NCBI GenBank assembly: GCA_913057775.1
Contig: CAJXOG010000002.1
Coordinates: 124,001-188,000 of the forward strand
DNA: 64,000 nucleotides
DNA from: an uncultured Fodinibius sp.
GTDB lineage: Bacteria > Bacteroidota > Rhodothermia > Balneolales > Balneolaceae
Reading direction: 5' to 3'
The position numbers and the translations under genes were made by a program. The notes beneath the pieces were generated by a model. That model searched no databases. It saw only the letters and a list, made by a program, of their open reading frames with translations, and was not told the origin of the DNA. Below are positions 22,382 to 37,248 of the stretch, piece by piece; position 1 is the first letter of the stretch, and each line of letters begins with the position of its first letter.

Positions 22382-24799
22382 TTAGTATTGGGTTAGTCGA
22401 TTTGCAGTTTTAATAATATCGTTAAGTACACCAGATGCGGTAACTTCTTTACCGGCACCCGGGCCTTGAATAACCAGAGGCGTATGATTATAAAAATCCG
22501 AATAGATTTGGATTAGATTGTCGGTCCCTTTAAGCTGCCCGAGCGGAGAATCCTTTGGAACCGATTCGATACCGATCGTTATATTTCCATCTTTTAGTTT
22601 GCCAGTGTAGCGGAGTGTTTCATTTCGATTTTTTGCTTTTTGGATGTGTTGTTTCCATTTGCTGTCATATTCGGATAGCTTTTCCAAGAAAATATTGTCG
22701 TCAACATTTTTCAATTTCTCTGGGATCAGTGATTCCACTTGCAGTTCTTCCCGTTCTATTGTGATGCCCAGTGTTCGTGCAAGAGTCAAGAATTTACGGG
22801 CCACATCTTCTCCTGAAAGATCATCACGCGGATCAGGTTCAGCGTATCCCTTTTCGCGGGCGTCGATAATAGCCTTGCTGAATGGAACCCCCTGTTCAAG
22901 CTGATTAAACAGATAGGTCATGGTACCGGAAACAACGCCTGATATTTCAGAAATTTGATTGCCAGTGGATTGTAGATCATTGATGGTAGAGATTACCGGT
23001 AAGCCTGCACCCACTGTTGTTTCGTATCTAAATGAGTTATTATGCTTTTTTGTCAGCTTTTTGAGTTCATCAAAAAATGATTGCTCAAAGGTATTGGCTA
23101 ATTTGCTGGGGGTAACAACATGAATTCCATTGGCAAATAACTTGGGATATAGTCGCGCTACTTCTTCACTGCCGGTAGCATCTACAAAAATCAAGTTTCG
23201 GTGTTTGTTTTTTTTGAGCTTATCCAGCAGAACATCCCACTTTGTTTGCTTGGTCTCATTCCAGTTGAGTTCTGTATCCAAGTTAATTCCATCGGTATTC
23301 CACAGCATTTTGCGACTGTTGCAGGTACCAATAATCCGAAATTGAAAACCAGTAGTTTCCAGTTCACTGAGGTGGTCTAAAAGTGTTTGTCCGACAGCCC
23401 CGGTGCCCGCTACAAAAAGATCGACGGTAGGGTTTGTTTTGGAAATGTTGTTGTTAATTAAGTGCGCTGCCTTACGGGTGTCATCTTCAGGAAGTAGAAA
23501 TGAGATGAATCGTTCGTCGTAGTTTTGTTCGGTGTGAAGTGGCCGAATATTATTTTCGCTAAGTAACGAAATAATCTGGGCAGAGAGCTTGTCATCTTTA
23601 CTAAATTCATTACTGAATTTTTTCAGCTTATATAGATTGTCATCAAGATTAAAGAGCGTACTTTGGTTGGCTGCCCATGTAGAAAGTTGCTCTTTGATTT
23701 CATTAAAAAAGGATTTCTCAAGTAAAAATCGAGCTGCTTCAAATTCGGTTTTTTGTGTAAACTCTATAGGTTTGCTATCGGTATTATCAGCGCTCCATTT
23801 GTGCAGCTGTAGAAACAGATCGTGACCATGCTTTTGATCAATTTGCAGTCTTACAAACGGACCGGTAATGGTGATTGTTTTGAGAGAGCCGTTGGTGTTA
23901 AAGTCTGATGTAATGAGTGTGCCGGGATGTTGGGGATTGTGACTGTTTTTTACTAACACGGTGGTTTTTTTGTTTTGGATGGGTTGAATTGTTTTGGGAT
24001 GGATGACTCGGGCACCATGAGATGAGAGCTCAGCTATATCGCTAAAGCTGAGCTGTTCAATAGATTCTGCATTCGGCACCCATTGTGGATCGGCCGTTAG
24101 AACACCGTCCACATCAGTCCAAATTTCAAGGTGATCGGCATCAAGAGCATCAGCAATAAGTCCGGATGAATAGTCGGAGCCCGATCGCCCGAGCGTAGTA
24201 ATTTGCTGCTGATCGTTAGAGCCGATAAAACCGGTAATTATAGGTACTGCTTTTGACTGTCGAAGAAATTTTTGAATCAGTTTGCGGGTGGCATCACGAT
24301 GCACTCGTGCTTTGCCGAAGGTGGAGTCGGTTTTAATAAAGTGGGATGCTTCGTACGATACCGAATCAATATTATGTTCAGTTAAAGCAGCAGCAAAAAT
24401 TAGTGCTGATGCACGTTCCCCTATCGACAATATGTGATCTTTCCAGGCATTGAAGTTAGTATCCCGTGAATCTTTGTTCTCGAGAGTCATTCTTAGTTCG
24501 ACAAAAAGATCTTGCAGATCACCTCGTTTGGGATGTCCCGGAGATGCCAACTCGTCAAGGATGCGTTGGTGTTGATTCTCAAGCTCATCTAAAATCCGGT
24601 ATGATATATGATTATTTTTGTGACAATGGTCGGACAATTTAATCAGTGTGTCGGTAACTCCGCCAATAGCAGATACAACTACAATAGGATCTGCCTTCTG
24701 CATTCGCTCCCGAACAATTTGAACCGATTGCTGAATGAGTGATGAGTTCTGTAATGATGACCCACCGAATTTGAGAATATGTGTTTCTGAATATGACAT
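22382..24799 (-). CDS. thrA: Bifunctional aspartate kinase / homoserine dehydrogenase
   Basis: The 805-residue fusion carries out the first and third steps of the aspartate pathway. The N-terminal kinase begins ILKFGGSSLQNSSLI and holds FIGSNDQQQITTLGRSGSDYSS (key residues GRSGSD) near 205; a linker/ACT-like region spans about 310-450; the dehydrogenase begins LFVAGTGAVGQTLLD near 463 and includes ISGVVSGTMTYLFNQL and GYAEPDPRDDLSGEDVARK. Its size matches E. coli ThrA (820). It follows metX by five bases, so homoserine made here feeds MetX directly. thrB and thrC are not in the window. Confidence 0.96.
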   Translation of the reverse strand: MSYSETHILKFGGSSLQNSSLIQQSVQIVRERMQKADPIVVVSAIGGVTDTLIKLSDHCHKNNHISYRILDELENQHQRILDELASPGHPKRGDLQDLFVELRMTLENKDSRDTNFNAWKDHILSIGERASALIFAAALTEHNIDSVSYEASHFIKTDSTFGKARVHRDATRKLIQKFLRQSKAVPIITGFIGSNDQQQITTLGRSGSDYSSGLIADALDADHLEIWTDVDGVLTADPQWVPNAESIEQLSFSDIAELSSHGARVIHPKTIQPIQNKKTTVLVKNSHNPQHPGTLITSDFNTNGSLKTITITGPFVRLQIDQKHGHDLFLQLHKWSADNTDSKPIEFTQKTEFEAARFLLEKSFFNEIKEQLSTWAANQSTLFNLDDNLYKLKKFSNEFSKDDKLSAQIISLLSENNIRPLHTEQNYDERFISFLLPEDDTRKAAHLINNNISKTNPTVDLFVAGTGAVGQTLLDHLSELETTGFQFRIIGTCNSRKMLWNTDGINLDTELNWNETKQTKWDVLLDKLKKNKHRNLIFVDATGSEEVARLYPKLFANGIHVVTPSKLANTFEQSFFDELKKLTKKHNNSFRYETTVGAGLPVISTINDLQSTGNQISEISGVVSGTMTYLFNQLEQGVPFSKAIIDAREKGYAEPDPRDDLSGEDVARKFLTLARTLGITIEREELQVESLIPEKLKNVDDNIFLEKLSEYDSKWKQHIQKAKNRNETLRYTGKLKDGNITIGIESVPKDSPLGQLKGTDNLIQIYSDFYNHTPLVIQGPGAGKEVTASGVLNDIIKTANRLTQY

Positions 24800-24804
24800 T
24801 TGAT

Positions 24805-25848
24805 TTACACTGATTGTTCAGATAATTCTGTTTGTAATGATTTTACAATGGAATTGAGTTGCCCGAACTCGATTAAAAAGGCATCGTGCCCGTGTGGAGA
24901 AGAAATCTCTTTATAACGTCCGTTAGGCAATAGGTTTGCCAAGTGCTTGCATTCTTTCGAGGGATAAAGCATGTCGCTGTCGATACCGACAACAATAATT
25001 GGAATAGTCAAGGCCGCAAGTGTTTCTTGAATTCGTGGCCGACCCCGCCTGATATCGTGAGAGTCCATAGCCTGGGTAAGTCGAACGTAGGAGACGGCAT
25101 CAAACCGATCGATGAGTTTTTTACCCTGATAGTTAAGATACGATTCCACCTCGTATTGGGATTGTCCATCCTGTAGGCGTCGTCCGAATTTTTTATCAAA
25201 ATCAGAAGGATGTCGGTAACTGTTCATTGCAATCATACGTGCCAGTGCCAACCCTTTCTTAGGAGGATTTTCTTCGGAGTAAAATCCGTTATTCCAGTTA
25301 GGATCATTGTAAATAGCCTGCCGCTGGGTATGACTAATTCCTATTGCCCAGGGGCGATGTTTTTCTCCCATTCCAACAAGAACAGCCGACTGCGGACGAT
25401 CATCTGTAACGGACCATTCCAAAGCCTGCATGCCGCCCATCGATCCACCGATGACTAACTCGATGCCGGAAATATCCAGTTCATCAAGAAGTTGCTGCTG
25501 GAGCCGTACGATGTCGCGAATGGTTACGTTTGGAAAATCAGCCCGGTATGGTTCTTCAGTTTTTGGGTTAATGGACGTGGGACCACTTGATCCATAGCAG
25601 CTGCCCAAAACATTGGGACAAATAATGAAATGCTCCTTTGGATTGAGGGCTTTATTTGGGCCAAATAATCCTTCAAACCATGTGTCGGCGGAAGTATTTC
25701 CGGTTAGGGCATGGCAGACCAGAATAACATTATTACGCTCGGTATTTAAATCACCCCACGTTTGATATGCTATGGTCGGATCGGGAATCGTAGCTCCGCC
25801 CTCGGTAACAAATGGTTTTTCAAAAGTATGTGATTGCTTGTCGCTCAT
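24805..25848 (-). CDS. metX: Homoserine O-acetyltransferase MetX
   Basis: The 347-residue alpha/beta hydrolase-fold acyltransferase activates homoserine for sulfur addition. The nucleophile elbow is GGSMGGM (Ser136), the acid is in VGIDSDMLYP (Asp292) and the histidine in SPHGHDAFL (His321). The segment NVLGSCYGSSGPTS near 79-92 is typical of MetX. Acetyl rather than succinyl transfer is the usual activity of this subfamily but cannot be proved from sequence. It sits between metY and thrA in a SAM-controlled operon. Confidence 0.95.
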   Translation of the reverse strand: MSDKQSHTFEKPFVTEGGATIPDPTIAYQTWGDLNTERNNVILVCHALTGNTSADTWFEGLFGPNKALNPKEHFIICPNVLGSCYGSSGPTSINPKTEEPYRADFPNVTIRDIVRLQQQLLDELDISGIELVIGGSMGGMQALEWSVTDDRPQSAVLVGMGEKHRPWAIGISHTQRQAIYNDPNWNNGFYSEENPPKKGLALARMIAMNSYRHPSDFDKKFGRRLQDGQSQYEVESYLNYQGKKLIDRFDAVSYVRLTQAMDSHDIRRGRPRIQETLAALTIPIIVVGIDSDMLYPSKECKHLANLLPNGRYKEISSPHGHDAFLIEFGQLNSIVKSLQTELSEQSV

Positions 25849-25922: not shown

Positions 25923-27272
<1,350 letters not shown>

Positions 27273-27339: not shown

Positions 27340-27391
27340 AAGCCTCTTCCAAGATCTTGCACCGGTCGGGTAAAGATCTCAGAAGAGGCTT
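27340..27391 (-). terminator. Expression-platform terminator of the SAM-I riboswitch
   Basis: The outer stem AAGCCTCTTC (27382-27391) with GAAGAGGCTT (27340-27349), read on the minus strand, continues into an inner AGATCTT/AAGATCT stem and is followed by TTTTTT. Its 5' arm can pair partly with the aptamer P1 3' strand, as expected for a SAM-off switch, although the antiterminator was not fully worked out. Confidence 0.85.
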
Positions 27392-27419: not shown

Positions 27420-27537
27420 CTCTCATCTTTCCCCGGATAACCGGAGCAGGAAGTGGCACCTTTTCCCCGCAATATTAAATGCGAGACGGTTGCCAAAGCG
27501 TCTTCGGGCCTGATCCCTCAGCTTTTCTGGATAAGAG
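27420..27537 (-). promoter_or_regulatory. SAM-I (S-box) riboswitch upstream of metY
   Basis: Minus-strand sequence matches the SAM-I aptamer in order: P1 5' strand CTCTTATC (27537-27530), GAGGGA..GGCCC, the conserved TTTGGCAACC, GGTGCCACTTCC, and P1 3' strand GATGAGAG (27427-27420). It is followed by an intrinsic terminator and then metY. High S-adenosylmethionine should stop transcription of metY-metX-thrA. Confidence 0.95.
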
Positions 27538-27576
27538 TGCTCACTAAATCAAAAGAACAATCGTATAGAAACTAAA

Positions 27577-27606
27577 AAAGCCCTTCGGGATTGACCGAAG
27601 GGCTTT
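27577..27606 (-). terminator. Terminator/attenuator between leader ORF and SAM-I riboswitch
   Basis: A 12-bp stem, AAAGCCCTTCGG with CCGAAGGGCTTT, closes a six-base loop and is followed on the minus strand by TTTTTT. It ends the M1 peptidase transcript, but it also lies 27 bases after the Cys/Met-rich ORF and before the riboswitch, so it could act as an attenuator for metY. Confidence 0.88.
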
Positions 27607-27633
27607 GAATCTGTTTCACAAGAGTAAAACGAA

Positions 27634-27711
27634 TCAGTCCTCCGGTTGCAGGTGCGGCATACACATGCACATACAACAGAGGCGACAAATATGTTTTTCG
27701 ATTCGTTTCAT
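27634..27711 (-). CDS. 25-residue Cys/Met-rich putative leader peptide
   Basis: The frame ATG (27711) to TGA (27634) encodes MKRIEKHI followed by CRLCCMCMCMP and HLQPED: five Cys and three internal Met within ten codons. A run of codons for the sulfur amino acids directly upstream of a terminator hairpin and of the metY operon is the layout of a translation-controlled attenuator. Codons 2-4 (27700-27708) are perfectly complementary over nine bases to 27627-27635, which starts inside the stop codon, so the ORF is enclosed by a stem that a translating ribosome would open. A weak promoter (TTGTAT, 17 bases, TATGTT; 27737-27765) lies just upstream. The function is inferred. Confidence 0.7.
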   Translation of the reverse strand: MKRIEKHICRLCCMCMCMPHLQPED

Positions 27712-27773
27712 ATCTTGGTTTTTGAATTTCAAATCTAACATAAATGATTATCAGTTGCGATACAAGTATCAAT

Positions 27774-37163: not shown

Positions 37164-37248
37164 TGCCCAAGAAAGGACTCGAACCTTCACGGGGATAATC
37201 CCCACATGCTCCTGAAGCATGCGCGTCTACCAATTCCGCCACTTGGGC
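37164..37248 (-). tRNA. tRNA-Leu (anticodon CAG)
   Basis: Minus-strand sequence forms a complete class II tRNA: acceptor arm GCCCAAG / CTTGGGC, D loop with GGTAGACG, anticodon stem CATGC / GCATG with loop TTCAGGA (anticodon CAG), a variable arm GGGGATTATCCCC, and T arm with GGTTCGAGTCC. The 3' CCA is not encoded. Leu(CAG) reads CUG. Confidence 0.97.

Follow-up and report, generated by a model that had tools for sequence, protein, structure and literature searches.

Sequence evidence for a probable Cys/Met-codon attenuator in series with a SAM-I riboswitch upstream of metY in the Balneolales

Layout of the metY leader

The window analysed here is a stretch of 64,000 nucleotides from an uncultured Fodinibius sp. 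of the order Balneolales (contig CAJXOG010000002.1, positions 124,001 to 188,000). Its minus strand carries, in the direction of reading, a 25-codon ORF, a first terminator (terminator 1), the motif GTTCTTT, a SAM-I riboswitch, a second terminator-like hairpin and the genes metY-metX-thrA (Table 1). The aptamer at 27537-27420 matches RF00162 over positions 1-108 of 108 with 83.8 bits (gathering score 44.4, E 2.5e-18). Terminator 1 has 12 pairs, seven of them G-C, followed by the tail TTTAGTTTCT. The MetY proteins of four same-genus relatives (G003, G004, G008 and G011) are 87-94% identical to that of the window.

A first-pass annotation, made from the letters alone, had described the ORF with its translation, the first terminator and the aptamer, and all of these agree in position with the sequence, the hairpin scan and the RF00162 match. 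It had also placed a second terminator before metY. A T-run hairpin can indeed be read there by eye, at about 27391-27340; it is absent from the list of the hairpin scan, which covered loops of 3-8 only. Neither the antiterminator nor the boxA-like motif discussed below was part of that annotation. No T-box match reaches the gathering score in the window, where only SAM and one tRNA pass, and a T-box reading was therefore set aside. The tRNA gene (37164-37248, minus strand) is the sole other Rfam match above the gathering score in the window.

Table 1. Positions of the leader elements and genes of the metY operon within the window
Feature	Position	Strand	Basis
Promoter-like -7 motif TAGATTTG, TAnnTTTG type	27730..27737	-	Sequence and motif scan; weak
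Predicted transcript start	about 27723	-	Placed from the promoter-like -7 motif
Leader ORF, 25 codons and stop, MKRIEKHICRLCCMCMCMPHLQPED, Cys/Met codons 9-18	27634..27711	-	Cys/Met run retained across the order
Start-stop helix, 5′ strand, codons 2-4	27700..27708	-	Conserved within the genus; partner strand 27635-27627
Antiterminator strand ACCGGAGG, spanning codon 22 (last base) to codon 25 (first base)	27639..27646	-	Base complementarity with 27601-27594 in terminator 1
Start-stop helix, 3′ strand, beginning inside the stop codon	27627..27635	-	Pair count in the genus
Terminator 1	27577..27606	-	Hairpin scan; 27601-27594 is the strand shared with the antiterminator
boxA-like GTTCTTT, between attenuator and aptamer	27552..27558	-	Enrichment against background windows
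SAM-I (S-box) riboswitch aptamer	27420..27537	-	RF00162 match
Presumed SAM-I expression-platform terminator, AAGCCTCTTC ... GAAGAGGCTTTTTTATTT	27340..27391, about	-	T-run hairpin read from the sequence
metY, O-acetylhomoserine sulfhydrylase-like	25923..27254	-	PF01053 (Cys_Met_Meta_PP), E 9e-132; exact enzyme name by gene context
metX, homoserine O-acetyltransferase-like	24805..25848	-	PF00561 (alpha/beta hydrolase); name metX by gene context
thrA-like, aspartokinase-homoserine dehydrogenase	22382..24799	-	PF00696 and PF00742

Occurrence of the leader and of the boxA-like site

The order was sampled with 58 genomes, that of the window included. A whole-genome search finds SAM-I in 54 of them, at 63 loci. 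Nine of these loci have a homocysteine methyltransferase downstream and are referred to as metH loci. The remaining 54, called non-metH, comprise 44 with MetY at most 1.6 kb downstream and 10 without a reference-protein match (tblastn). Leaders were sought in the 230 bases upstream as frames ending in a stop and containing at least four C or M, two of them C, within 10 residues. Such a Cys/Met-rich ORF is found upstream of 47/54 non-metH loci and of 0/9 metH loci. Weaker Cys leaders are visible by eye at three further non-metH loci (G045, G046 and G049), and none is present at the last four (G015, G033, G025 and G055); G025 has a MetY homologue with just 29% identity. In each of the nine genomes that have SAM-I twice, the leader is at the metY copy and absent from the metH copy. 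The expectation that the ORF would recur in relatives, and with its Cys/Met codons conserved, is thus borne out. MetY makes homocysteine from sulfide, and MetH only converts homocysteine to methionine. A leader with Cys codons at metY and not at metH fits this division. In the four genomes of the order without SAM-I (G026, G031, G042 and G048) the best MetY matches have at most 41% identity; these genomes lack a close MetY whose upstream region could show a leader without SAM-I.

At four loci in one genus (L021, L039, L029 and L009, from G037, G040, G043 and G057) the ORF ends 22-23 bases before SAM-I and no terminator was found between the two. An arm of the GCCTCTTC type follows SAM-I in 36/63 loci. 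In many relatives (L020, L011, L047 and others), and not in the window, SAM-I is followed first by an ORF for a small protein, MKSTFNNWYDKKMRATEE..., which we take to be CoA-binding and YccU-like.

The phylum set consists of 54 SAM-I loci among the matches listed, five from family f1 and 49 not belonging to the order. Of the latter, again among the matches listed, 5/49 pass a looser filter (300 bases, stop not required), and one of the five is a true leader. Its family, f23, has 37 SAM-I matches. The 30 with oriented loci were examined, and in four of these a leader is present, always together with a terminator and a complementary tail strand, as judged without shuffle controls. In a family of the phylum other than that of the window, L242 (G341) has a Cys/Met leader and SAM-I before a different ORF, MREKRNRSILKAISWRVTGSLDTMLVSF..., with no reference Met protein in the stretch read.

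The motif GTTCTTT lies 10-25 bases before SAM-I in 48/63 loci of the order against 1/441 background windows. All 48 are among the 54 non-metH loci, and 0/9 metH loci have it. The boxA-like site goes with metY rather than with the leader, because all four leaderless non-metH loci carry GTTCTTT and no metH locus does. Counted by gene, over loci with downstream sequence read and within 45 bases before SAM-I, it is present in the order at 38/44 MetY loci and at 10/10 loci without a reference-protein match, in family f24 at 19/19 MetY and 3/3 MetX loci, in f23 at 14/27 MetY loci and in f6 at 0/4 MetY loci. It is found at 0/12 metH loci of all families counted. Within the same class, f7 has it at 2/2 and f8 at 3/3 loci, and f6, f9, f10, f12, f13 and f15 together at 0/14. 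The GTTCTTT core recurs in CGTTCTTTGACA and CGTTCTTTTTC, upstream of 16S rRNA in G002 (one copy) and G043 (three copies). The rRNA boxA was taken from these two genomes because the assembly of the window (G000) gave no 16S rRNA match; two of the five relatives searched did. The boxA consensus GYTCTTTAANA is gamma-proteobacterial, and non-rRNA genes under boxA control are in print (PMC5725501, in part). The boxA-like GTTCTTT may have a regulatory role at metY leaders.

Antiterminator, terminator 1 and the position of the ribosome

The tail of the leader ORF, ACCGGAGG (27646-27639), is complementary to CCTTCGGT (27601-27594), which belongs to the 5′ arm of terminator 1 and includes the first base of its loop. 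A terminator is found at 43 of the 47 leader loci, and in 43/43 of these leader-plus-terminator loci the tail or the bases flanking the stop match the terminator arm despite changes in the sequence of the arm (for example CCCTTCGG, CCCTTTT, CCCTCCG, TCCCTCGG and GAACCC). The antiterminator statistics refer to these 43 loci and leave out the terminator-less G037, G040, G043 and G057 as well as G045, G046 and G049 with their weak leaders. Measured against dinucleotide shuffles, the energy of the tail/arm duplex has p<=0.05 in 38/43 and p<=0.01 in 18/43 loci; in the other 5/43 the complementarity is not significant. A swap test is stronger than the shuffle test because it preserves the composition of tail and arm. 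Among 24 genus representatives the true pairs have a mean of -15.0 kcal/mol and permuted pairs one of -11.9 (sd 0.5), and 0/20000 permutations reach the value of the true pairing. Five of the 43 loci pair with their own arm no better than with the mean of the arms of other genera, because the core GCCC is common to many arms. Pairing of the ORF tail with the 5′ arm of terminator 1 is thus the predicted decisive switch.

The genus in which no terminator was found bears on another way in which the leader might act, namely by Rho-dependent termination or through RNA stability instead of an intrinsic terminator, as suggested for the cys leaders of mycobacteria. These lack conserved terminators (PMC1262725, in part), and in G037, G040, G043 and G057 the ORF comes directly before boxA and SAM-I. 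Such a mode of action is unlikely, since the window and 42 other loci combine a terminator ending in a T-run with a complementary tail strand.

Whether a ribosome would set this switch in the required sense depends on where it stands. Its leading edge was put at 12 bases past the A site, a single value used for both geometry and constrained folding. With this edge, a ribosome at the stop reaches the antiterminator strand in 43/43 loci, and each of the 43 loci has at least two Cys/Met codons at which a stall leaves that strand free, the latter half of the test being weak because the region searched starts near the end of the run. Constrained folding used the RNA up to the 5′ arm of the terminator with the ribosome footprint blocked. 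For the window this partial fold gives the full antiterminator (8/8 pairs) with the ribosome at codons 2, 9, 12, 13, 15, 17 and 18, and no antiterminator pair with the ribosome at codons 19 and 21 or at the stop. Followed codon by codon, the antiterminator is on at codons 1-2 and 7-18 and off at codons 3-6 and from 19 onwards, so that the change from on to off coincides with the end of the Cys/Met run. The state at codons 1-2 counts against the attenuator reading, as a ribosome there also leaves the antiterminator on. Summed over the 43 loci, a ribosome leaves the antiterminator on at 244/286 Cys/Met codons versus 382/666 other codons, and in 43/43 it is off at the last sense codon.

When the full-length RNA of the window is folded, the terminator prevails, with 11-12 pairs, in each of the stalled states tried. 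Since it does so in the finished RNA, the switch would have to be kinetic. In the partial fold with no ribosome the window shows no antiterminator pairs, and the antiterminator forms in 21/43 loci; a general protector hairpin is therefore not apparent.

The first-pass annotation had drawn attention to a nine-base complementarity between codons 2-4 (27708-27700) and 27635-27627, and had expected translation through the Cys/Met run to disrupt that stem. The complementarity is real and the stem is kept in the genus, where it is an accessory helix; the decisive role would pass to the ORF tail and the terminator 5′ arm. As a helix of 12 pairs it has 89.5% of cells paired among the 12 genus members, against 27.8-52.1% when the strands are slid. 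Its seven two-sided cells are matched by 0/500 shuffles. Three pairs show two-sided change, but 80/500 shuffles reach the same number. Alignment A1, in which the terminator region is misaligned in several rows, served for pair counts of this helix only. The helix is not proposed as a general part for the order, where 15/41 loci have p<=0.05; this order-wide test used the wrong start codon for G000, and the genus pair count used the right one. By eye, the start-codon region is complementary to the stop region at L021, L039, L029 and L009.

Proposed mechanism and known systems

In 8/12 genus members (the CLCCMCM type) codons 12, 13, 14 and 16 of the leader ORF are invariably C, C, M and M, with synonymous TGT/TGC changes at codon 13 and variation at codons 5, 9, 10 and 17. 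The other 4/12 have a longer Cys/Met run in a different layout. Across the order the Cys/Met run, which exceeds chance, is kept while the N- and C-terminal residues, the run length and the spacing vary. Such variability argues against a functional small Cys-rich protein, for instance a metal- or thiol-binding one with the terminator as the end of its own gene, although a Cys-rich peptide whose ORF has a terminator, and possibly a promoter, to itself is in that explanation's favour. Met 14 and 16 are moreover as constant as Cys 12 and 13 in those eight members, which metal binding by Cys would not need, and in 43/43 loci the terminator arm has its complement in the ORF tail or around the stop. 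A small protein is accordingly given very little credence.

Upstream of the leader in the window, only the -7-like TAGATTTG at 27737-27730 was found; its TAnnTTTG type is presumably the Bacteroidota -7 form. A full TTG/TAnnTTTR pair occurs upstream in 7/43 loci versus 5/436 background stretches, and the -7-like part, alone or with the full pair, in 15/43 versus 37/436. These counts point weakly to a promoter before the leader ORF. Between terminator 1 and SAM-I no complete TTG-N17-22-TAnnTTTR motif is present in 43/43 loci, and a -7-like match appears in 1/43. A metY start downstream of terminator 1, which the first-pass annotation had held to be incompatible with its proposal, thus finds no complete Bacteroidota-type promoter motif to begin from. 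Separate transcripts, with terminator 1 ending a short regulatory RNA and a metY promoter in the 39 bases between terminator 1 and the aptamer, are for the same reason most improbable and would leave the antiterminator without purpose.

Judged by its sequence, the leader has the anatomy of a trp-type attenuator that reads Cys and Met codons and stands in series with SAM-I. The reading of the locus as a ribosome-mediated Cys/Met-codon attenuator followed by a SAM-I riboswitch is given a probability of about 0.8. What the sequences show is the anatomy, its conservation, an antiterminator complementarity that tracks the terminator across genera, and a fitting geometry. The proposal of the first-pass annotation that one transcript is tested twice, first by a Cys/Met attenuator and then by SAM-I, gains support from the order-wide conservation, from the antiterminator that follows its terminator and from the leaderless metH loci. 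We infer the transcript start, translation, stalling, the sensing of charged tRNA and of SAM, and the resulting gate as follows. Transcription would begin just upstream of the 25-codon ORF. With Cys-tRNA and Met-tRNA charged, the ribosome would run on to the stop and cover the tail at 27646-27639, terminator 1 would form and transcription would end. With either Cys-tRNA or Met-tRNA scarce, the ribosome would wait at codons 9-18 and leave the tail free. The exposed tail could then pair with the 5′ arm of terminator 1, allowing transcription to continue. The polymerase would next pass the boxA-like site and meet SAM-I, where high S-adenosylmethionine would end transcription. The predicted outcome is a serial gate, in which metY-metX-thrA is fully expressed only when Cys/Met charging and SAM are both low.

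If this is true, the leader offers a clear example from nature of one pathway governed by a codon-reading attenuator and, in series with it, a metabolite riboswitch. Such a cell could distinguish a lack of amino acid for translation from a lack of methyl donor. The contrast with metH, which has SAM-I alone, makes the serial logic directly testable.

The same kind of leader also occurs away from SAM-I. A Cys/Met pattern search led to sulfite reductase operons, which have a Cys/Met leader in 13/13 loci examined (L260-L272). A terminator with a complementary tail strand is present in 12/13, for example AGGTAGTGG with CCACTACCT, as seen without a shuffle control. In these 12 loci, which do not include L262, GTTCTTT is absent from the 230 bases after the leader ORF. 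A sulfite reductase match was obtained in 18 genomes, and the weak matches G022, G036, G039, G052 and G054 were left out of the leader count. By whole-genome search, all 13 genomes have SAM-I elsewhere and not at sulfite reductase. The first gene of the operon in G006 encodes a rhodanese (Pfam), and at nine further loci the gene start looks similar by eye; at G047 and G050 the leader is directly before sulfite reductase. The genome of the window has no match to this sulfite reductase. Over the 58 genomes the pattern TGYTGYATGTGYATG gives 16 matches versus 1 for the reversed control, ATGTGYATGTGYTGY 15 versus 0 and TGYTGYATGATGTGY 4 versus 2, and in the window's own genome only the metY leader is matched by these three patterns. 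At L188, before a TonB-dependent receptor gene, and at L310, before a CitMHS-family transporter gene, leaders of the same kind are seen by eye; both genes are possibly concerned with the uptake of sulfur compounds. Nine further matches (L184, L186, L304, L305, L307, L309, L312, L313 and L314) look by eye like chance, in coding or non-leader sequence, and were rejected.

The sulfite reductase leaders suggest a sulfur regulon, and the Cys/Met leader resembles a portable unit for the control of sulfur genes, which at metY has been set before SAM-I. A wider view, tentative and rated somewhat below even odds, is that the metY leaders of much of the Bacteroidota are RNA machines of several parts, which in the Balneolales would be the translated Cys/Met attenuator, a boxA that loads NusB-S10, and SAM-I. 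The boxA would be built into many metY SAM-I leaders, and the Cys/Met leader would be a portable module of a sulfur regulon that did not appear in the literature searched. The boxA would load the NusB-S10 antitermination complex on polymerases that survive the first test and would carry them through the long untranslated riboswitch against Rho. If true, the Balneolales would have a sulfur regulon controlled through Cys/Met codons, and boxA may be in use beyond rRNA.

Each of the devices involved is already known. Clues for leader-peptide attenuation before amino-acid operons have been described in a flavobacterium (PMC9723704, in part), and for Bacteroides short ORFs that resemble leader peptides (PMC7366714, in part); leader peptides in the phylum are therefore not new as such. 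No described leader-peptide system of the Balneolales turned up in the open-licence literature searched. Among the open-licence matches listed, titles and abstract openings disclose no Cys/Met leader peptide from the Balneolales, nor one that precedes a SAM riboswitch. The first-pass annotation had thought the two-layer layout undescribed in this lineage, and the same literature is in keeping with that: the serial arrangement of a Cys/Met attenuator with SAM-I, its conservation across the order and the contrast between metY and metH were not found there.

The closest likenesses fall into two groups. Among codon-reading leaders, the uORFC-8-2 leader of cysS in the Rhodobacterales has a tandem-Cys uORF and a terminator with predicted ribosome-mediated attenuation, but it reads Cys codons, precedes a tRNA synthetase gene and belongs to the Alphaproteobacteria, and the part of the source at hand mentions no riboswitch (PMC8632094). 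The leader peptides of Mycobacterium cys operons likewise precede cys genes and have Cys-codon runs close to their stop; they differ in lacking a conserved terminator hairpin, and the portion of the paper used describes Cys runs only and mentions no riboswitch (PMC1262725). Among leaders that combine two signals, that of Salmonella mgtCBR contains two attenuators which work independently and whose signals add up, one being sensed through a proline-codon-rich ORF. Its signals are ATP and proline-charged tRNA, each acting through an ORF, and it lies in another phylum and, as far as the partial text goes, has no SAM riboswitch (PMC3641672). In Xanthomonas a SAM-I that binds uncharged initiator tRNA combines SAM and Met-tRNA status in one met leader, whereas there the expression platform itself binds the tRNA and acts mainly on translation, no ORF being mentioned in the available part (PMC7270179).

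Like plain SAM-I (S-box, RF00162) leaders, that of the window has an aptamer scoring over the gathering threshold and, after it, a terminator-like hairpin and an operon for sulfur assimilation; it differs in having, ahead of these, a second terminator predicted to depend on translation and a boxA-like site. Attenuators of the trp, his, leu and thr type consist of a short ORF with regulatory codons, a terminator and a mutually exclusive antiterminator. The leader described here resembles them in all of these parts and in the geometry of the stalled and the released ribosome, and differs from them in that Cys and Met appear to be read together, in the presence of a riboswitch downstream and in its occurrence in the Balneolales.
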